Assembly (NCBI RefSeq): GCF_029245835.1
Contig: NZ_JAQWOO010000008.1
Location: 1-36,435, forward strand
Length of the DNA: 36,435 nt
Origin: Algibacter sp.
GTDB taxonomy: Bacteria > Bacteroidota > Bacteroidia > Flavobacteriales > Flavobacteriaceae
Direction of reading: 5' to 3'
Shown here: piece by piece, positions 6,585-16,050 of the stretch
Layout: the number at the start of each line of letters is the position of its first letter
How positions within the stretch are numbered: position 1 is the stretch's first letter
Translations under genes and position numbers: made by a program
The notes under the pieces: model-generated
Seen by the model: the letters and a program-made list of their open reading frames with translations, nothing else
The model's database searches: none
What the model was told of the DNA's origin: nothing

Positions 6585-9434
6585 ATGTCCGACAACAAAC
6601 GTGTCTTTTTAGTTGATGCATTCGCATTAATTTTTCGTGGCTATTATGCCTTTATAAAAAACCCAAGAATTAACTCCAAAGGTGTTGATACCTCAGCCAT
6701 TATGGGGTTTATGAACTCCTTATTAGATGTTATAAAACGTGAGCGCCCAGACCATTTAGCAGTTTGTTTTGATAAAGGTGGAAGCGCAGACCGTGTGGAA
6801 CTATTTGAAGCTTACAAAGCCAATAGAGACGAAACACCCGAGGCGATAACAATAGCTGTTCCTATCATTCAAGACATTTTAAAAGCCATGCACATCCCCA
6901 TTATGGTAAAAGCAGGATATGAAGCCGATGATGTGATTGGAACGCTCGCAAAACAAGCCGAAAAAGAAGGCTACCAAACGTTTATGGTTACGCCAGACAA
7001 AGATTTTGCACAGCTTGTAAGCGAGAACATTTTTATGTACCGACCTGTTTTTGGTGGCGGTTACGAAACTTGGGGCATTCCTGAAGTTCAGAAAAAATTT
7101 GAAGTGACCGACCCCTTACAAGTGATTGACTTTTTAGGGATGATGGGCGATTCTAGTGACAATATTCCCGGGCTCCCGGGAGTTGGCGAAAAAACAGCAA
7201 AAAAGTTTTTAGCAGCATATGGTAGTATGGAAGGCTTACTAGCAAACACCCACGAGCTAAAAGGCAAAATGAAAGAAAAGATTGAGGCCAATGGCGAATT
7301 AGGCCTTTTGTCCAAAAAGCTTGCGACCATCATGCTTGATGTTCCGGTGACTTTTGATGCCAAGGATTTCGAATTGGACCAACCTGATATTCCGAAAGTA
7401 ACCGAGATTTTTCAAGAGTTGGAGTTTAGAAGATTGATTGATAATTTCACAAAAACATTTACTGTTCAGGCTGAAACGACGCCATCTGAAACAACAACAA
7501 AAGCCTCAGAAACCAAAACAACCCCTAAAGAGCAGGCTTCGGCAGGTGCAGGACAATTCTCGTTATTTGGAGCCGACCCTTCTAGTGCAGCACAAACGGA
7601 AACAACTTCTGAGTTTACTCGAAAAACAGCAGAAACTACGTCGCATTTTTATCAAAGTGTGGCGCCTGGTATGGCCACCAAACTTTTTATTAAAAACTTG
7701 ATGAATCAAAGTTCCGTGTGTTTTGATACGGAAACTACAGGTTTAAATCCGCTAACTGCCGAATTGGTTGGGATTGCTTTTTCTTGGGAAGTGGGTAAAG
7801 GTTTTTACATGCCATTTCCAGAAAACAAAGACGAGGCGCAAGAGCTGATTGAACAATTACGTCCGTTTTTTGAAAGCGAAACCATTGAAAAGGTGGGGCA
7901 GAATTTAAAATACGATATTAAAGTGTTGGCTAAATACAATGTAGATGTTAAAGGCAAATTGTTTGACACCATGTTAGCGCATTACCTCATCAATCCAGAT
8001 ATGCGCCACAATATGGATGTATTGGCTGAAACCTATTTGAATTACACACCCATTTCTATCGTAGAATTGATAGGTAAAAAAGGAAAGAATCAACTATCGA
8101 TGCGTGATGTGCCTTTGGAAAAACAAACCGAATATGCTGTTGAAGATGCTGATATTACCTTACAACTCAAAGAACATTTTCAAAATGAATTAGGCGAAGC
8201 CAATACTCAGAAATTATTTGATGAGATTGAAATTCCGTTGCTTCGCGTTTTAGCCGCTATGGAATTAGAAGGTATTAACCTTGACAAAGATTTCTTAAAT
8301 GCATTATCTGAAGAACTTAACAGTGATATTGCAACGCTTGAAAAACGTATTTATGACGCGGCAGGCGAGGAATTTAATATCGCTTCACCAAAACAACTAG
8401 GAATCATTTTATTTGAAAAATTGAAACTGGTTGACAAGCCTAAAAAAACCAAAACAGGACAATATGCCACTGGCGAAGATATTTTAAGTTATTTAGCCAA
8501 AGACCACGAGATTATTCGAAATATTTTGGAATATCGCGGACTCGCCAAATTAAAAAGCACTTATGTGGATGCCTTACCAACGCAGGTAGATGAAGTCACA
8601 GGGCGTGTACATACGGATTATATGCAAACGGTTGCAGCTACAGGACGTTTAAGTAGTAATAATCCAAATTTACAGAACATACCTATTCGTACCGAACGGG
8701 GGCGACAAGTGCGTAAAGCATTCATTCCTCGCAATGAAGACTACATTTTATTAGCTGCCGATTATTCACAAATAGAACTCCGTATTATTGCTGCTTTAAG
8801 TCAAGAAGAAACCATGATTGAAGCGTTTAAAAACGGGGAAGATATTCATGCATCAACCGCTTCAAAAGTATTTAATGTCCCATTAAGTGAAGTCACCCGA
8901 GAGCAACGTAGCAATGCCAAAACCGTTAATTTTGGGATTATTTATGGGGTTTCTGCTTTTGGATTAAGCAATCAAACCGATTTATCGAGAACCGAAGCCA
9001 AAGAATTGATTGACACCTATTACGAAACTTACCCTAAATTACGCGCTTACATGAGCCAACAAGTCGATTTTGCTCGCGATCATGGTTATGTGCAAACCGT
9101 TTTAGGACGTCGTCGTTATTTAAAAGATATTAACTCTAGAAATGCCGTAGTTCGTGGTGCTGCAGAACGTAACGCTGTAAATGCGCCCATTCAAGGAAGT
9201 GCTGCCGATATTATTAAAGTGGCCATGATTAATATTTACAACAAGCTAGAAGCCGGAAACTATAAAACCAAAATGCTTTTACAAGTGCATGATGAATTGG
9301 TTTTTGATGTGTATAAACCGGAATTAGAGACCATTAAAACCTTAGTTAAAACGGAGATGGAAAGTGCTTTTGTGATTGATGTTCCTTTGGATGTGGAGGT
9401 TGATACGGGGTTGAATTGGTTGGAGGCGCATTAG
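6585..9434 (+). CDS. polA: DNA polymerase I
   Basis: At 949 residues this is a full-length family A polymerase. The N-terminal 5'-3' exonuclease (about 1-290) has the acidic cluster GYEADD (111-116), TPDKD (136-140) and GDSSDNIPG (188-196). A Gln/Thr/Ala-rich linker (about 295-355) joins it to the proofreading exonuclease, whose active residues are intact: D381-x-E383, D444 and Y517/D521. The polymerase domain has DYSQIELR (D726), the O-helix R775-K779-F783-Y787 and HDE (D903, E904). It fills gaps in lagging-strand synthesis and excision repair in the cytoplasm. It is a single gene with its own promoter and converges on the mcrC gene. Confidence 0.98.
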   Translation: MSDNKRVFLVDAFALIFRGYYAFIKNPRINSKGVDTSAIMGFMNSLLDVIKRERPDHLAVCFDKGGSADRVELFEAYKANRDETPEAITIAVPIIQDILKAMHIPIMVKAGYEADDVIGTLAKQAEKEGYQTFMVTPDKDFAQLVSENIFMYRPVFGGGYETWGIPEVQKKFEVTDPLQVIDFLGMMGDSSDNIPGLPGVGEKTAKKFLAAYGSMEGLLANTHELKGKMKEKIEANGELGLLSKKLATIMLDVPVTFDAKDFELDQPDIPKVTEIFQELEFRRLIDNFTKTFTVQAETTPSETTTKASETKTTPKEQASAGAGQFSLFGADPSSAAQTETTSEFTRKTAETTSHFYQSVAPGMATKLFIKNLMNQSSVCFDTETTGLNPLTAELVGIAFSWEVGKGFYMPFPENKDEAQELIEQLRPFFESETIEKVGQNLKYDIKVLAKYNVDVKGKLFDTMLAHYLINPDMRHNMDVLAETYLNYTPISIVELIGKKGKNQLSMRDVPLEKQTEYAVEDADITLQLKEHFQNELGEANTQKLFDEIEIPLLRVLAAMELEGINLDKDFLNALSEELNSDIATLEKRIYDAAGEEFNIASPKQLGIILFEKLKLVDKPKKTKTGQYATGEDILSYLAKDHEIIRNILEYRGLAKLKSTYVDALPTQVDEVTGRVHTDYMQTVAATGRLSSNNPNLQNIPIRTERGRQVRKAFIPRNEDYILLAADYSQIELRIIAALSQEETMIEAFKNGEDIHASTASKVFNVPLSEVTREQRSNAKTVNFGIIYGVSAFGLSNQTDLSRTEAKELIDTYYETYPKLRAYMSQQVDFARDHGYVQTVLGRRRYLKDINSRNAVVRGAAERNAVNAPIQGSAADIIKVAMINIYNKLEAGNYKTKMLLQVHDELVFDVYKPELETIKTLVKTEMESAFVIDVPLDVEVDTGLNWLEAH

Positions 9435-9484: not shown

Positions 9485-9518
9485 TTCTCATTCACAATGT
9501 TAATGAGAAGTGTTTTTT
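9485..9518 (+). terminator. Likely polA terminator
   Basis: The arms ttctcatt (9485-9492) and aatgagaa (9502-9509) form a perfect 8-bp stem with a 9-base loop, followed shortly by six T. It lies 50 bases after the polA stop and overlaps the last codons of the convergent mcrC gene. Confidence 0.55.
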
Positions 9519-10873
9519 CTTTCAATCTCATTAAGTTCATTTATCAACAATCTTTTTATTTCTTTTATGCTGTCCTTTCTTAAAGGTACGCCTAAAATTA
9601 ATATTGTATTTCTTGCTTCATTTAATCCGTTTTTAAAGTGTATACTTTTTATTTCTATTTGGTCTGATGGGTAACAAAGAAATCCATATTTAAAATCCGT
9701 TTTACTAAATGACGAATATGCCATTATTTGATGTAGGTCGTGTCGATGATCTTCTTTCAGTTTATCGCTCTGAACAAACTTGTTATAAAGGTTAGATTTG
9801 TATTTGGCATCAATAAAAACTAAAACGTTTTTTTTTTGAAAAATAGCGTCAGGTTCAATATGCTTTAATTCCCAAGAGTAATGCTTCGTAGTGCTAGAAT
9901 GGAATTTAAAATTTGAATAAAGTCTCCCACCTGTTTCTTTAGCAACTTCCTTAAAGATATGTTGTATAAATTTCTCAAATACATCTGAGAAGTCAACACG
10001 CCAAGATGTACTATCAACAAGATTAAAGTTTAGAATTTTATTAGCTTGTTCCTTGCAGTTTTTGACTGTTGGACTATCTGAAAACCTAATAATTGTTTTA
10101 TTAGTTGCTTTTGGCTTATGATGATATAACCGCTCTTCAAGAAAGTTTAACTTATTTCGAAGTGTGTTTTTTATTCTTTGTGGCGTATTAGCTGATAAGA
10201 GTTCGCCTTTACAAATATCAAAAACATATCTAATTTCAGCGTATTCGTTATGAAATTCGCTTAATACATTGATTCTGGCTGGAAACTTTAAACTATTTTC
10301 AACTTTGTATTCCGAATTAATATATTTAGTCCAGTTTATTTGTCCAATTGGTTGATTTGAAATTTTTTCAATATTATCAAACTTACGCCAAGGTCTCATT
10401 GTCAGAATTTCAAGAGATGAAATGAATTTTACAGCTTCTAAATACAATGGTGGCCTAAAATTATTTCCTGACGCTAGTGGCAAACTATCAATGACTTCTG
10501 GACTTATTTCAGCTCCAAGTAGGTTTAAAATTTCAATATAATCTTCAAATCTATCTCTACCGGTAAATCTGGGCACTACAACAAAGTCTCCAATTTGCTT
10601 TCCAGTATCAGAAGCTCTTAGAGGAATAGAACCTATAAAACCTGATGAACGAAACGATAGTGCGGTACTTTTGTCAGAGCCAATTATGTAAGGTTGCACA
10701 CCCAGGAATTTAAATTGCTCGGAATTGTAATCAATAAACTTTTGAAGATACTGTCCAATAACTCTTTTATCTGCTGACTTAAACCATTTTTTTTGCAATG
10801 CAATTCCACTTAACTGTCTTGATTTTTCCGTTAAGCAAGGTATTTCATAAAAAACATCTAATGGTTTTGTCAT
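9500..10873 (-). CDS. mcrC: McrC-like nuclease subunit of a type IV restriction system
   Basis: The 457-residue protein pairs with the McrB-like GTPase encoded directly upstream. The C-terminal part (about 295-400) carries a PD-(D/E)xK nuclease core: E300, D342 in EPDAIF, then D355-A-K357 in FIDAKYK, and HQIMAY (381-386) as the trailing helix. In McrBC the McrC subunit supplies the nuclease and stimulates the McrB ring, cutting DNA with modified cytosine. The N-terminal 290 residues are McrC-like in size without motifs I can name. Its ATG overlaps the mcrB stop in an ATGA, so translation is likely coupled. The target modification is unknown. Confidence 0.85.
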   Translation of the reverse strand: MTKPLDVFYEIPCLTEKSRQLSGIALQKKWFKSADKRVIGQYLQKFIDYNSEQFKFLGVQPYIIGSDKSTALSFRSSGFIGSIPLRASDTGKQIGDFVVVPRFTGRDRFEDYIEILNLLGAEISPEVIDSLPLASGNNFRPPLYLEAVKFISSLEILTMRPWRKFDNIEKISNQPIGQINWTKYINSEYKVENSLKFPARINVLSEFHNEYAEIRYVFDICKGELLSANTPQRIKNTLRNKLNFLEERLYHHKPKATNKTIIRFSDSPTVKNCKEQANKILNFNLVDSTSWRVDFSDVFEKFIQHIFKEVAKETGGRLYSNFKFHSSTTKHYSWELKHIEPDAIFQKKNVLVFIDAKYKSNLYNKFVQSDKLKEDHRHDLHQIMAYSSFSKTDFKYGFLCYPSDQIEIKSIHFKNGLNEARNTILILGVPLRKDSIKEIKRLLINELNEIERKNTSH

Positions 10874-12306
10874 TCGAAAAGAGATAAATTTAGCCTTGTT
10901 GAGAAATAGTTATTGAACTCCTCTTTCGCACTCCGCAATAGCCCTTCTTGTAAATATTCTTTAATCAAAGGAAAGACTTCGTAACGTATTCTATTAAGCA
11001 TTTCAGCTTCATTTTTCGCAATGAAATATCCTTCCCCGGGCTGAAGATTTAATTCTGGACTTGACGCATACCAATTAAAAATTTCCTCGATGACAGCAAA
11101 ATCTTCTTTAAAGAAAAATTCTTCTTCTGTTATTTTATTCACAGATACACTATCAAGTCTTTTACTTGACCCCTTAATAATTCTCGGGGATTTATTATAC
11201 CAAGCGAACCTTCTTCTTAATGCAAAGTCTACAACTGCCAAACTTCTATCGGCTGTATTCATAGTAGTAATGACAAAAAAATTATCGGGCAGTTTTTTTA
11301 CTTTGAAATTAGGGGAAATTTCAATTTCAACGTTTGAAACATCCATCTTATGTTCAAACAGGTAAAAAATAGGTCCTAACACATTTGAGAGATTTGCTCT
11401 ATTTATTTCATCAATTATTAATATGACCTTTTCTGTGCTATTATCAACTGCATACTTCAAGGCTTCCGAGAAGCTCCCCAAATATTCTTTATATCGAAGT
11501 TTTTCGTTTGTAGTGTCAGGTCTAATTCCGAAAATAAAATCTGAAAAACTAGTTTCCGCGTGAAATTGCGTAAAAAATGTCTTTGTACCAATTTGGTCTG
11601 CTACACTTTTTGCTGTTCTTGTTTTTCCTGTACCCGGAGGTCCTTGAAGTACAATATATTTTCTTTCGTTTAGAAGATTTTTTATTTCTCTTTCTTCATC
11701 TTTAGTTTCTGTTTTAATAAAAGGTTCTAAAGCCTCTGTAATTGCTTTTCGGTGGTCTTTGTTAGAAGGCCAATCCCTGAGCTTCGCATAACCTGCTACA
11801 AATGCTGAAATTACTTGTTTTCCTTCTTCACTTTCTGGGTCGTCAACAATTTGGCAACTAGGTAAAACTTTGGTGTAAGTCTTAATTGTGTTTTTTATGT
11901 GCTGTAATTCTTGGCTTCCAGTGATAGATTTAGGCAAGCCAGTTTCTATATCTGAGAAATCAGATTTACAAAAGCCTTTTTCATTGATAAGCTTCATAAA
12001 CAATCTTCTTAGTCCTGGATAGGTTGCAAGTTCGTAGTCATTTTTAAAACCACTGGAGCCAATTCCTAGACAAATTAACCAAGGTTTATTCTTATCGTTG
12101 GGAAATATTGTCAATGAAAAGTCGTGAAATGGTCCAGATGCTTCTTCTTCTGGGTGAATAAAACCAAAATATGCACCATTGTCATTTAGTGCTTCTTGTC
12201 CAGTGTTGTTCCTTTCAACATATGGCTTGTTGAATTCGTTGTCTGTCTTAGCACCGAATTGTTCGGCTTGTGCTTTTATAAATTCTCTAATATTCTGTAT
12301 GCTCAT
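10870..12306 (-). CDS. mcrB: McrB-like AAA+ GTPase of a type IV restriction system
   Basis: The 478-residue protein has a unique N-terminal region (1 to about 190) that presumably reads the DNA target and that I could not assign to a family. The AAA+ domain follows: Walker A GPPGTGKT (222-229), Walker B LIIDEINRAN (296-305) and MNTADRSL (349-356), followed by ALRRRF (362-367). That last block is nearly the classical McrB signature and separates it from other AAA+ proteins. The protein should form a GTP-driven ring that moves DNA to McrC. A short hairpin lies between this gene and the regulator gene upstream (90-base gap), so weak internal termination is possible. The family call is firm; the substrate is inferred only. 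Confidence 0.9.
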   Translation of the reverse strand: MSIQNIREFIKAQAEQFGAKTDNEFNKPYVERNNTGQEALNDNGAYFGFIHPEEEASGPFHDFSLTIFPNDKNKPWLICLGIGSSGFKNDYELATYPGLRRLFMKLINEKGFCKSDFSDIETGLPKSITGSQELQHIKNTIKTYTKVLPSCQIVDDPESEEGKQVISAFVAGYAKLRDWPSNKDHRKAITEALEPFIKTETKDEEREIKNLLNERKYIVLQGPPGTGKTRTAKSVADQIGTKTFFTQFHAETSFSDFIFGIRPDTTNEKLRYKEYLGSFSEALKYAVDNSTEKVILIIDEINRANLSNVLGPIFYLFEHKMDVSNVEIEISPNFKVKKLPDNFFVITTMNTADRSLAVVDFALRRRFAWYNKSPRIIKGSSKRLDSVSVNKITEEEFFFKEDFAVIEEIFNWYASSPELNLQPGEGYFIAKNEAEMLNRIRYEVFPLIKEYLQEGLLRSAKEEFNNYFSTRLNLSLFE

Positions 12307-12769: not shown

Positions 12770-13045
12770 ATGGCAATTCTAAATTTTGAAGAAAAGGTAG
12801 ATTATTTAAAAAAGCAATTAGAAAATATTGAAGACAATTATGCTGATAGTTTTAAAAATGATATATTTTTTTTCATTTATAATTTTGAAACTTCAAATCC
12901 TAGACTATTTTTCATAAAAAACATATCTTCTAAAGTTGAAATTGACAATTGGATAAATAAATTGACGTCAAGAATAGTTTTAAAATTTGATGAAGAGTAT
13001 GAAACAATTAATGATTTCATTTACGATTATATCGCGAACGGTTAA
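12770..13045 (+). CDS. Small acidic protein of unknown function
   Basis: The 91-residue product is acidic and aromatic-rich, with a predicted helical N-terminus (FEEKVDYLKKQLENIEDNY) and a hydrophobic FFFIYNF stretch in the middle. It has no signal peptide, no cysteine and no motif I recognise. It is the first gene reading away from the XRE-McrBC locus and shares the intergenic operator with it. A second small gene follows after 35 bases, so the two probably form one transcript. A role in regulating, guarding or supplementing the restriction system is inference from position only. The start codon ATG is the first available and follows a -7 box. Confidence 0.55.
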   Translation: MAILNFEEKVDYLKKQLENIEDNYADSFKNDIFFFIYNFETSNPRLFFIKNISSKVEIDNWINKLTSRIVLKFDEEYETINDFIYDYIANG

Positions 13046-13080
13046 TTTATCATTTACATAATTAAACTATAAAAAAAATA

Positions 13081-13266
13081 ATGATGGACTATTCTATATT
13101 ACCTATTCCTTCTGTTCTGGATTTACCTTTTAAACTTAAAGATATTTTATATAATTGTCCTGTTTGTAATTTCGAAATTGAAATAGATTTAATCTTAAAC
13201 GAAAATAGTTTTATTGAATGTGATAATTGTGAACACAGAATTAAACTTAGGCTAAAAAAAATTTGA
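13081..13266 (+). CDS. Small zinc-ribbon protein
   Basis: The 61-residue product contains two CxxC knuckles, CPVC (C26, C29) and CDNC (C47, C50), separated by 17 residues, the pattern of a zinc ribbon. The N-terminus is short and hydrophobic (SILPIPSVLDLPF) without a membrane segment, and the C-terminus is basic. Such proteins usually bind nucleic acid or a protein partner. It follows the acidic small gene by 35 bases. The start may be either of two adjacent ATG codons (13081 or 13084). Function unknown; the metal-binding call rests on the four cysteines. Confidence 0.6.
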   Translation: MMDYSILPIPSVLDLPFKLKDILYNCPVCNFEIEIDLILNENSFIECDNCEHRIKLRLKKI

Positions 13267-13378
13267 ATAAAACTAGCAAGCGATTATTGGTAAATCATAC
13301 TTTTCCTAAATTTATGCAATGCCATATTAAAACAATTAATCTGCTAAATTATTACTCCAAAACTTTAATCGAAGGTTT

Positions 13379-13405
13379 GTCCCCTTGAGGGGACTTTAGG
13401 GGTGT
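13379..13405 (+). repeat. REP-like repeat, left copy beside the DUF559 gene
   Basis: A 27-base unit: the palindrome gtccccttgaggggac followed by tttaggggtgt. It ends 22 bases before the DUF559 start codon. The copy at 13815-13841 is its inverted partner, with 26 of 27 positions identical. Confidence 0.85.
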
Positions 13406-13427
13406 CAGAGTAGGATACACAAAACAA

Positions 13428-13793
13428 ATGAAAAACAAAATAATTCCATACCACCCAGAATTAAAACGACTAGCCAGACAGCTCCGAAAAAACAGCACCT
13501 TACCAGAAGTGTTCTTATGGCAACATATAAAACAACGCGCATATGGCGTGCAATTTCACAGACAAGTACCCATGCTACATTATATTGTCGATTTTTATTG
13601 TCATGAAATTAGGTTAGCCATTGAAATTGATGGGCATAGTCATGAGCATTCTTTTGAATATGATGCTAAAAGACAAGGAGAATTAGAAAAATATGGTGTC
13701 AAATTTTTGAGGTTTTCGAATGATGACGTTAAAAAGAATATGTTTAGTGTGTTGTTGGTTATTGAAGAAAAAGTTAAAGAATTGAGTGACTGA
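13428..13793 (+). CDS. DUF559 (Vsr-like) endonuclease-domain protein
   Basis: The 121-residue protein is a complete single-domain DUF559 protein. The N-terminal part has ARQLRKNSTLPEVFLW (16-31), then FHRQVPM (43-49), and the PD-(D/E)xK-type core with Y52-I-V-D55-F and E66-I-D68-G-H70. This fold is shared with the Vsr mismatch endonuclease. The likely activity is DNA cleavage in the cytoplasm; the substrate is unknown. The start ATG is preceded by a 27-base REP-like repeat, and an inverted copy follows 21 bases after the stop. It is unrelated in strand or spacing to the ygiQ gene behind it and looks like a stand-alone insertion between the defence locus and ygiQ. Confidence 0.9.
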   Translation: MKNKIIPYHPELKRLARQLRKNSTLPEVFLWQHIKQRAYGVQFHRQVPMLHYIVDFYCHEIRLAIEIDGHSHEHSFEYDAKRQGELEKYGVKFLRFSNDDVKKNMFSVLLVIEEKVKELSD

Positions 13794-13814
13794 AGCTTAA
13801 AGTATGTTCTAAAA

Positions 13815-13841
13815 ACACCCCTAAAGTCCCCTCTAGGGGAC
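13815..13841 (-). repeat. REP-like repeat, right copy beside the DUF559 gene
   Basis: The reverse complement of this stretch matches the left copy at 26 of 27 positions; one T/A change lies in the palindrome loop. Confidence 0.85.
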
Positions 13842-14046
13842 ATTCCAAATATTGAAATTTTTAGTATAAATTATTGTTACAAAAATAAATTATGAAATGA
13901 TCACTTCTATATCGTGCGCAAAGATATGCCCCTATAATTGTTCCCTTGAGGATTATCGAAATGAATATGTTTTTATTGAAGATACCGAGCGTAGCTTATA
14001 GGTTTGTCAAAATAAATAAATAACACTTTTATTAACGTGAACAATT

Positions 14047-14073
14047 GTCCCCTTGAGGCGACTTTAGTGGTGT
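14047..14073 (+). repeat. REP-like repeat, third copy downstream of ygiQ
   Basis: This copy is in the same orientation as the left copy and matches it at 25 of 27 positions; one change breaks its hairpin. A shorter fragment ttgttcccttgagg lies at 13938-13951. The 13842-14097 stretch otherwise contains no gene that I can support. Confidence 0.7.
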
Positions 14074-14097
14074 TGGCATAAAAGATCAAAAATGAAC

Positions 14098-16050
14098 CTA
14101 CCTCCGCTTCTTCTTACTCTTAAACTTAGCCTTATTCTTCCGCTTATTAAACGGAATAGCGTCATCATAAGTGTTTTTTGCTTCACCAGTGGGCTTATTT
14201 TTACGCCATTTCTCTGTCTTTGCAGGAAGCAATACATCTAGTAAATCTTGACGCCCAAGTTTATTCAGCGTTTTTTTAATCCAAGCTTTATTTTCATCTT
14301 TATACCAAAAGAAAAAACGGTGTTGCTCGTCTTTTTCCTTTCTAGTAATTGGTGTCTTTACTTTTTGGAGTGTGTAAGGATGATACCCGCTATAATAAAT
14401 TACGGTCGCCACCGTCATAGGTGTTGGAGTAAACCCTTGTACTTGCTCTAACTGGAAACCCATATCTTTAGTTTCGGCAGCAAGATTAGCCATATCTTCA
14501 ACTTCACAAGCCGGATGATTAGAAATAAAATAAGGTATCAGTTGCAATTTTAAGCCCTTCGCTATATTAATCTTATCAAAACGTTCCTTGAACTTGTGGA
14601 AATAACTAAACGATGGTTTCCGCATCAACTTCAAAACAGGATCACTGGTATGTTCTGGCGCTACTTTAAGGCGTCCAGACACATGCTTAGTCATCACTTC
14701 CTCAGTATAATCGTCTAGTTCCTTTGGGTCAGCATTTTTATTAAATTCTGGCACCAACATATCATGTCGGATTCCAGAACCTATAAATGATTTTTTTACT
14801 TTCGGATGACTATCAACCGCTTGGTACAAATCTGTTAACGGCTTGTGCGAGGTGTCTAAATTGCTACAAATAACAGGTGAAATACACGAAGGTGCCACAC
14901 ACTTATCGCATATAGATTGCACCTTGCCTTTCATCTTGTACATGTTGGCACTCGGCCCACCAATATCAGATAAATACCCTTTAAAATCGGGCATATTCGC
15001 CACCGTATCTACTTCTCGCAATACAGATTCCTGACTTCGAGAGGCAATAAATTTACCTTGATGTGCAGAAATCGTACAGAAACTACAACCACCAAAACAC
15101 CCACGGTGAATGTTAATGGAAAACTTAATCATTTCATAAGCTGGAATTGGTCCACGCTTATTATATTTTGGGTGTGGCATTCTTGTATACGGCAACTCAA
15201 AAGACGCATCAATTTCAGCTTCCGTCATGGTAGGACAAGGCGGATTAATCATCAAGGTTTTATCGCCTACTTTCTGAAAAATACGTCTTGCTGCTAACTT
15301 ATTAGATTCTTGTTCAATAATCTTAAAGTTAGACGCATACTTTTTCTTATCTTTTAAACACAGCTCATGCGATGCAATTTCAACATCTTCCCAATTACTA
15401 TTTTTAGGAATTTTTGCTCCAGCATCCAACAAAACAGCTGTTTGCTTAATGGTTGTAATACTAGAAAACGGCACCCCTTTTTGCATTAATCGCACCACTT
15501 CACGCAAGGGTTGTTCGCCCATACCGTACACCAACATATCGGCTTTTGAGGTTTCTAAAATAGTTGGCATAAGCTTGTCACTCCAATAATCGTAATGCGT
15601 CACTCGGCGTAAAGACGCCTCAATACCACCAATTAAAATAGGCGTATCTGGCCATTTTTCTTTTAGAATATTTGAATAAACCGTTGTGGCATAATCTGGC
15701 CTAAAACCAATATCGCCATTCGGTGTATACGCATCTTTATCACGGCGCTTTTTATTCGCGTTATAATTGCTAAGCATCGGGTCCATACAACCACCTGTAA
15801 CACCAAAAAACAATTTTGGCTTACCCATTTTCACAAAATCCTGAAGATTATCATTCACATTCGGCTGCGGTACGATGGCAACGCGTAAGCCATAACTCTC
15901 TAAAATCCGACCAATAACAGCGGGCCCAAATGATGGATGATCCACATAAGCATCACCACTAAATAGTATAACGTCTAGCGCATCCCATCCGCGTATTTTC
16001 ACCTCTTTGTTTGTGGTAGGTAACCAATCTGAAAGTTGTAATTCTTGCAT
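14098..16050 (-). CDS. ygiQ: YgiQ family radical SAM protein
   Basis: The 650-residue protein matches the YgiQ (UPF0313) family in length and order. The N-terminal half (about 25-200) resembles a cobalamin-binding-type Rossmann domain (LFSGDAYVDHPSFG, 29-42; ILIGGIEASLRR, 138-149). The radical SAM core begins at HRGCFGGCSFC, giving the CxxxCxxC cluster C318, C322, C325 for the 4Fe-4S centre. The C-terminus is a DUF3362-type region ending in a Lys/Arg-rich tail, which may contact RNA or DNA. The reaction is not established for this family. It is encoded alone, with a -7 box close to its start codon and REP-like repeats downstream. Confidence 0.95.
   Translation of the reverse strand: MQELQLSDWLPTTNKEVKIRGWDALDVILFSGDAYVDHPSFGPAVIGRILESYGLRVAIVPQPNVNDNLQDFVKMGKPKLFFGVTGGCMDPMLSNYNANKKRRDKDAYTPNGDIGFRPDYATTVYSNILKEKWPDTPILIGGIEASLRRVTHYDYWSDKLMPTILETSKADMLVYGMGEQPLREVVRLMQKGVPFSSITTIKQTAVLLDAGAKIPKNSNWEDVEIASHELCLKDKKKYASNFKIIEQESNKLAARRIFQKVGDKTLMINPPCPTMTEAEIDASFELPYTRMPHPKYNKRGPIPAYEMIKFSINIHRGCFGGCSFCTISAHQGKFIASRSQESVLREVDTVANMPDFKGYLSDIGGPSANMYKMKGKVQSICDKCVAPSCISPVICSNLDTSHKPLTDLYQAVDSHPKVKKSFIGSGIRHDMLVPEFNKNADPKELDDYTEEVMTKHVSGRLKVAPEHTSDPVLKLMRKPSFSYFHKFKERFDKINIAKGLKLQLIPYFISNHPACEVEDMANLAAETKDMGFQLEQVQGFTPTPMTVATVIYYSGYHPYTLQKVKTPITRKEKDEQHRFFFWYKDENKAWIKKTLNKLGRQDLLDVLLPAKTEKWRKNKPTGEAKNTYDDAIPFNKRKNKAKFKSKKKRR

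Follow-up and report, generated by a model that had tools for sequence, protein, structure and literature searches.

A probable two-part system of small Vsr-like DUF559 nucleases and associated intrastrand-triplex-type repeats

The closest described counterpart of the locus considered here is the REP/REPIN-RAYT system, in which a small endonuclease gene is flanked by short tailed hairpin repeats, the repeats also occur as inverted pairs and as dispersed copies, and repeat and enzyme form cognate pairs; the RAYT enzyme is of the Y1 HUH type, and one end of the REP repeats is marked by GTAG or CGTC (PMC3733652). A further class, the BoxC or PIT repeats, has been known since the 1990s, and its E. 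coli form (TM_ECO), 5'-CCCTCNCCC N3-6 GGGNGAGGG N3 GGGNGAGGG-3' (Holder et al. 2015, PMC4666352), is recorded there from 262 genomes, in which it marks sites of instability. The same survey describes these intrastrand-triplex repeats as forming inverted pairs, with strong copy-number differences among relatives and genetic instability, and reports that genetic-mobility activities were never found near them (PMC4666352). With regard to the protein, E. coli YcjD of the DUF559/YcjD family (PF04480; NGO0050 structure 3hrl) has been placed among the PD-(D/E)xK members (PMC1189080), and the Caulobacter DUF559 protein VsrA has been tied to a DNA damage response upon loss of cytosine methylation, for which a role in mismatch repair was proposed (PMC12907096). 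A literature search, conducted without most subscription papers and preprints, returned no link between DUF559 and repeats of this kind.

The window analysed here, a stretch of 36,435 nucleotides from Algibacter sp., carries a gene of 121 aa (13428-13793, + strand) that is predicted to encode a Vsr-like PD-(D/E)xK nuclease of the DUF559 family (PF04480). As an earlier note on this DNA had described, two near-identical 27-base repeats enclose this gene in inverted orientation: copy 1 (13379-13405, + strand) lies 22 bases upstream of the start codon and copy 2 (13815-13841, - strand) 21 bases past the stop, with 26 of 27 positions identical and the tails of both directed towards the gene. These copies, which read TGTCCCCTTGAGGGGACTTTAGGGGTGT, consist in the case of copy 1 of the hairpin GTCCCC-TTGA-GGGGAC, the spacer TTTA, a second G-arm (GGGG) and TGT. 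The further copy and the intervening fragment mentioned in the same note were recovered at 14046-14072 (copy 3, + strand, slightly decayed with two mismatches) and 13936-13951 (+ strand), respectively, and copies 2 and 3 together form a tail-outward, REPIN-like pair. A simple base-composition model predicts approximately 1e-11 further copies at ≤1 mismatch in the window by chance, and the genome to which the window belongs holds 17 copies at ≤3 mismatches, as opposed to none for a reversed-pattern control. Folding as single-stranded DNA, for which hairpin energies were computed, was modest for both copies (z -2.0 and -1.9), and the notion that each repeat is a hairpin followed by a tail applied to copy 1, whose best fold is the GTCCCC/GGGGAC hairpin plus tail, but not to copy 2, in which the C-arm pairs preferentially with the second G-arm. 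The GTAG/CGTC tag is absent from the window copies, and the window system additionally differs from REP in that its repeat possesses a second G-arm and its gene can be fused in frame, via the repeat, to host genes. A search of 13000-14300 against Rfam gave nothing up to an E-value of 1, so that an RNA element at the locus was discarded, as was assignment as a defence gene, for which PADLOC matches were weak at best.

The DUF559 gene is situated in a variable interval bordered by polA (DNA polymerase I; 6585-9434, + strand) and a gene with a Radical_SAM_N domain (PF08497; 14098-16050, - strand), and this interval also contains other variable genes. In the window, two overlapping genes (9500-12306, - strand) lie between polA and the DUF559 gene; one encodes an AAA_5 ATPase for which PADLOC gives type II restriction matches, its partner is without a Pfam or PADLOC match, and together they may represent a McrBC-like defence pair in this variable interval.

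Pfam analysis assigned the window ORF (13428-13793) to PF04480 at 108.4 bits (cut-off 20.6), a sub-threshold MTES_1575 match being the only other hit and a Y1 (HUH) domain being absent. The AlphaFold2 model of the protein (mean pLDDT 87) was matched best by Foldseek to the DUF559 structure 3hrl (E 2.5e-6) and next to the catalytic domain of the homing endonuclease I-Bth0305I (3r3p, E 1.5e-3), and more weakly to Vsr (E 0.07). The same model also retrieved mitochondrial ribosome chains of Toxoplasma and Tetrahymena (E 0.01-0.03). Among 36 sequences D55 and E66 are invariant and D68 is nearly so; we take these three to be the catalytic residues. Family profile, fold and conserved acidic residues all place the protein in the Vsr-like PD-(D/E)xK family DUF559, and the gene is under strong purifying selection (median dN/dS of 0.067 over 109 unsaturated pairs of 378). 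While the catalytic fold is shared with I-Bth0305I, the surroundings of the window gene showed neither an intron nor an intein; the gene lies between repeats and has a repeat as its partner.

Of 349 genomes belonging to the same family, 131 contained a match to the window protein, and DUF559 matches were found in 20 of 60 relatives. Many stand-alone DUF559 copies proved to have hairpin-plus-tail repeats in their flanks, with a repeat sequence that differs between DUF559 clades. To describe the clade closest to the window protein (type A), a collection of species genomes was scanned and the best 80 of 184 relatives were taken, of which 79 loci were used; going by the record titles, they come from Flavobacteriaceae genera or from metagenome bins, two of the latter being assigned no further than order or class, and a few of the 79 share a genome. 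At 74 of the 79 loci, one or both sides of the gene had a repeat no more than 400 bases away (upstream at 62, downstream at 51, on both sides at 39), and both tails pointed gene-ward at 30 of the 39 both-sided loci. Repeat density amounted to 2.84 per kb within 400 bases, compared to 0.051 per kb beyond 1000 bases. Inverted repeats as a general rule had to be abandoned, as only 5 of 98 loci exceeded the 99th percentile in a flank-against-flank test; the corresponding number for direct repeats was 58 of 98, which is not used as main evidence because some of these represent second gene copies (L051) or coding repeats (L114, L123 and L131). Many homologues possess direct repeats, or repeat pairs flanking both sides, and the inverted orientation is one form only of a general gene-beside-repeat pattern.

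The coding repeats at L131 (reverse strand, approximately 586-2579), L114 and L123 flank DUF559 genes of the MHDGATP clade and correspond to the start of a small membrane-protein-like gene (KFFRHIR...YAIGEIVLVVIGI), with L131 containing two tandem DUF559 copies. At L028 (approximately 2035-2430), tandem units of about 187 bases are joined by tail-less palindromes (TGTCCCCTCGAGGGGACA) and tails are present at the outer ends only, which suggests recombination at the palindrome centre. The highest repeat-A counts were obtained for genomes G108 and G165, with 26 and 27 copies, respectively, at ≤1 mismatch.

Similarity of the 200-base flanks rises with identity of the DUF559 proteins (rho 0.45, 95 loci; permutation sd 0.025, with none of 999 permutations as high). 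At the 90 loci for which more flanking sequence was available, outer flanks at 500-700 bases gave a rho of 0.056, a value reached by 6 of 499 permutations. When pairs without outer similarity were considered, flank repeats were shared by 92% of those above 80% protein identity, by 74% at 70-80%, by 38% at 60-70% and by 0.3% below 40%; the repeat type thus tracks the DUF559 clade beyond synteny, within Flavobacteriaceae and their order. Across 349 genomes, gene A (28 genomes) and repeat A (39) occurred together in 21 (odds ratio 50, p 1.9e-17), and gene B (37 genomes) and repeat B (28) in 19 (odds ratio 36, p 7e-15), using bit cut-offs of ≥150 for gene A and ≥130 for gene B that were chosen after the lists were seen, and with counts that partly reflect the gene-flanking copies themselves. 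Crossed gene/repeat pairs gave odds ratios of 6 (p 6e-4) and 3 (p 0.01), which are also above zero association. The repeat-A pattern was missing in 7 of 28 gene-A genomes and present in 18 of 321 genomes without the gene. At least 13 of the 28 gene-A genomes have copies located over 5 kb away from the gene, as compared to a copy at any position in 18 of the 321 genomes without it (p 2e-8). Y1 matches, which were detected in 135 of 349 genomes, are weakly linked with repeat A (odds ratio 2.9, p 0.003), and the association of gene A with repeat A persists when genomes lacking a Y1 match are considered by themselves (counts of 7, 3, 8 and 196; p 1.9e-7).

The earlier note had made its proposal dependent on such flanks being common among DUF559 homologues, and this was found to be so for most of those sampled. 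A detector specifying a C-arm, loop, G-arm and second G-run within 16 bases, with rules written after examples were seen, was applied to ≤200 bases from the gene. It identified repeats at 17 of the 19 closest loci, at 52 of 77 further loci within the family and order (weaker type-A relatives among them) and at 12 of 14 belonging to cyanobacteria, Deinococcus and Proteobacteria, these 14 having been picked for spread out of 36 matching plasmid-collection records. Control genes rarely scored (radical SAM 0/16, TetR-like 0/12, Y1 transposase 1/10). Outer windows scored in 12 of 180 cases when taken from the first two sets and in 5 of 26 when taken from the other-phylum set, so that the contrast is weaker in the latter. 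Long DUF559 proteins scored in 3 of 8 cases, all upstream of the chosen domain start, which may lie within the ORF, and in none of 9 in the first repeat test. The two other-phylum loci missed by the detector were those of E. coli and N. gonorrhoeae (2/14), though E. coli has exact published motifs. The sampled DUF559 genes elsewhere mostly carry other repeats that share one architecture, namely a C-arm, a loop, a G-arm and a second G-arm.

E. coli ycjD is a DUF559 gene, and exact copies of the TM_ECO formula are located beside it: at L138, one copy (1834-1868, - strand) contains the ycjD stop codon and another (2040-2074, + strand) lies about 180 bases past it, and in K-12 (L176) the second TM_ECO copy is present at 2014-2048. 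TM_ECO/BoxC/PIT repeats resemble the window repeat in their order of C-arm, loop, G-arm, short spacer and second G-arm, in their inverted pairs and in a copy number that varies between relatives; the TM_ECO arms measure 9 bases, as compared to 4-6 bases in type A, and with the same arm order and shorter arms the window repeat is an analogue and not TM_ECO itself. In 3333 of 5426 genomes a place was present that matched the ycjD query stretch over 80% or more of its length. E. coli did not serve as a clean empty site, since the three inspected strains lacking ycjD have a multidrug efflux gene after sapF, and the one such interval that was fully read contains an efflux operon up to fabI. An efflux operon at this site has been published for other lineages (PMC12817139), and its presence indicates replacement rather than an empty site. 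In E. coli strain 167 (L177) the region around ycjD, annotated there as incomplete, is 106 bases shorter than in L176, and the difference is located between direct repeats that duplicate the ycjD 3' end.

The comparison of orthologous loci for absence of the unit, as proposed in the earlier note, could be made at the aquaporin-TetR site in 10 genomes, five of which were uninformative. G003 and G006, which belong to the window's genus, hold a repeat pair, DUF559 (with an internal stop in G006) and a second repeat pair at this site, whereas in G000 (the window genome), G007 and G008 the two genes are approximately 95 bases apart without a repeat. Additionally, three orphan repeat sites of the window genome, comprising two pairs and a single copy, were compared. 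The first pair is absent in both of the two relatives having the gene, and the second in all eight relatives listed, of which G006, G007, G008 and G009 clearly share the upstream gene; in the window genome this second insertion lengthens the upstream ORF in frame. The single copy (L005 site) was uninformative because upstream contexts differ among relatives. In cyanobacteria, three plasmids could be compared at a single methylase site. That of Synechocystis sp. B12 (L272) carries DUF559 inside the methylase gene, enclosed by repeats with outward tails of which the right-hand one is decayed; the Pseudanabaena galeata plasmid has in this position a repeat pair alone, approximately 95 bases long and read through in frame, and the Oscillatoria plasmid has neither gene nor repeat. 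The methylase gene is split by the DUF559 insertion (records L272 and L284), and P. galeata shows, further upstream in this gene, another in-frame insertion that resembles a repeat. Read by eye, the flanks of empty sites were too diverged to establish a target-site duplication.

In 22 of 79 loci DUF559 neighbours polA and/or the radical SAM gene, in one orientation at 14 and in the other at 8, and in G009 polA adjoins the radical SAM gene with just a repeat scrap between them. The 80 type-A loci fell into 24 groups by shared neighbours (single linkage, rough). On a gene tree of 118 columns with weak support (8 of 73 branches starred, four rows dropped), in which 31 of 76 rows lie outside labelled groups and some orientations were taken from a single neighbour, the five labelled sites require four changes in total, three of them in the polA group alone, and at the polA site one switch of orientation suffices. 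With four site changes for five groups and a single change of orientation the gene appears to move rarely, and free transposition of the gene is unsupported, as sites follow the gene tree; the DUF559 gene is mostly inherited at its site. The earlier suggestion of a minimal mobile element is thereby supported in part: the unit is absent at some orthologous sites, but the gene is mostly inherited in place under purifying selection, neither a target-site duplication nor a transposition event was demonstrated, and the system is far wider than the 463-base unit.

At 19 of the 79 type-A loci the domain continues in frame into a host protein, these partners being a PALP-family enzyme (13), RNase P protein (5) and CutC (1), of which four were checked by Pfam and the others assigned by similarity. 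The join holds the translated repeat (TPLKSPQGD-type) in 17 of the 19; at L078, where tandem DUF559 copies occur, the repeat in another frame supplies the stop codon. DUF559 precedes RNase P protein in frame at L221, L222, L223, L255 and L256 (Muricauda, Maribacter and Croceitalea-type), and four of these five rnpA joins contain the translated repeat. In-frame insertion of palindromic repeats into coding genes is shared with the Rickettsia palindromic elements, for which we know of no resident nuclease gene.

We consider it probable that these observations describe a widespread two-part system, composed of a small Vsr-like PD-(D/E)xK nuclease (DUF559/YcjD) and its own intrastrand-triplex-type repeat. 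The DUF559 nuclease is a good candidate for an activity that spreads or maintains a common repeat class of uncertain origin, and the protein would cut or move the repeats; we infer recognition, cutting and copying by the protein from the cognate pairing, from the conserved fold and acidic residues and from presence and absence at orthologous sites. The protein would recognise the folded repeat (as hairpin or triplex), probably exposed as a single strand, and would nick or cut the repeat or a target, upon which repair would copy or insert repeat pairs at other places and occasionally move, invert or tandemly duplicate the gene between repeats, in a homing-like mechanism. The gene would stay long at one site, as RAYT genes do, and the repeat pairs would turn over faster. 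The likeness to REP-RAYT drawn in the earlier note holds for the layout, with a gene flanked by its own repeats, for the REPIN-like pairs, for the cognate pairing and for the dispersed copies and repeat pairs, but does not extend to the enzyme, which is unrelated and Vsr-like. The broader formulation has, in our estimation, an even chance of being correct: DUF559/YcjD proteins may be the missing dedicated enzymes of the BoxC/PIT superfamily across bacteria and a second, non-homologous solution to the REP-RAYT arrangement, in which a Vsr-like nuclease would copy folded G-rich repeats, use them as borders and be repeatedly welded in frame to host genes (e.g. rnpA) by a repeat-encoded linker.

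Alternatively, the repeats may be spread by a RAYT/Y1 transposase or by host replication errors, with DUF559 as a passenger that survives inside repeat clusters because breaks within repeats admit foreign genes harmlessly. The occurrence of repeat A in genomes devoid of gene A (18/321), the weak enrichment of Y1 matches in repeat genomes (odds ratio 2.9), the weak association of crossed gene/repeat pairs and the other variable genes housed in the polA-radical SAM interval are in keeping with such a passenger. It is nonetheless rather unlikely, given that repeat type follows the DUF559 clade where outer flanks are not shared, that matched pairs are far more strongly associated than crossed ones, that the link between gene and repeat persists in genomes without a Y1 match and that a repeat of this plan was present beside only one of 10 Y1 control loci. 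We hold it highly improbable that the repeat-gene-repeat arrangement is a classical MITE-generating autonomous transposon of which the repeat pairs are internal deletions: the tails are inward in 30 of 39 both-sided type-A genes, gene sites follow the tree, target-site duplications were not seen by eye in the diverged flanks, and PD-(D/E)xK is, to our knowledge, not a known sole transposase type. Such a transposon would nevertheless account for the Synechocystis sp. B12 gene between tail-outward repeats where P. galeata has the repeat pair only, and for the flanking repeat at 74 of 79 type-A loci.

As a further possibility, DUF559 may act as a Vsr-like nuclease in repair or restriction, with the repeats serving the control of its expression as a terminator, regulator or protective site. 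The response of Caulobacter VsrA to lost cytosine methylation (PMC12907096) agrees with a nuclease of this kind, as does the position of the repeats, which are separated from start and stop by a few to some tens of bases and supply the stop codon at some loci. This appears clearly improbable, however, as the repeats are dispersed to other sites, are found in frame inside or ending other genes and often occur on both sides of the gene and in arrays; furthermore, PIT repeats were reported to be without promoter or terminator activity in PMC4666352, which cites earlier work.

Should the proposed two-part system of DUF559 nuclease and repeat be correct, it would provide a function for a common family of unknown function (DUF559) and would add to REP-like elements a second class of enzyme, independent of the first. 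With a cognate nuclease, the origin of the BoxC/PIT repeats could furthermore be tested directly, laboratory E. coli K-12 being one of the places to do so.
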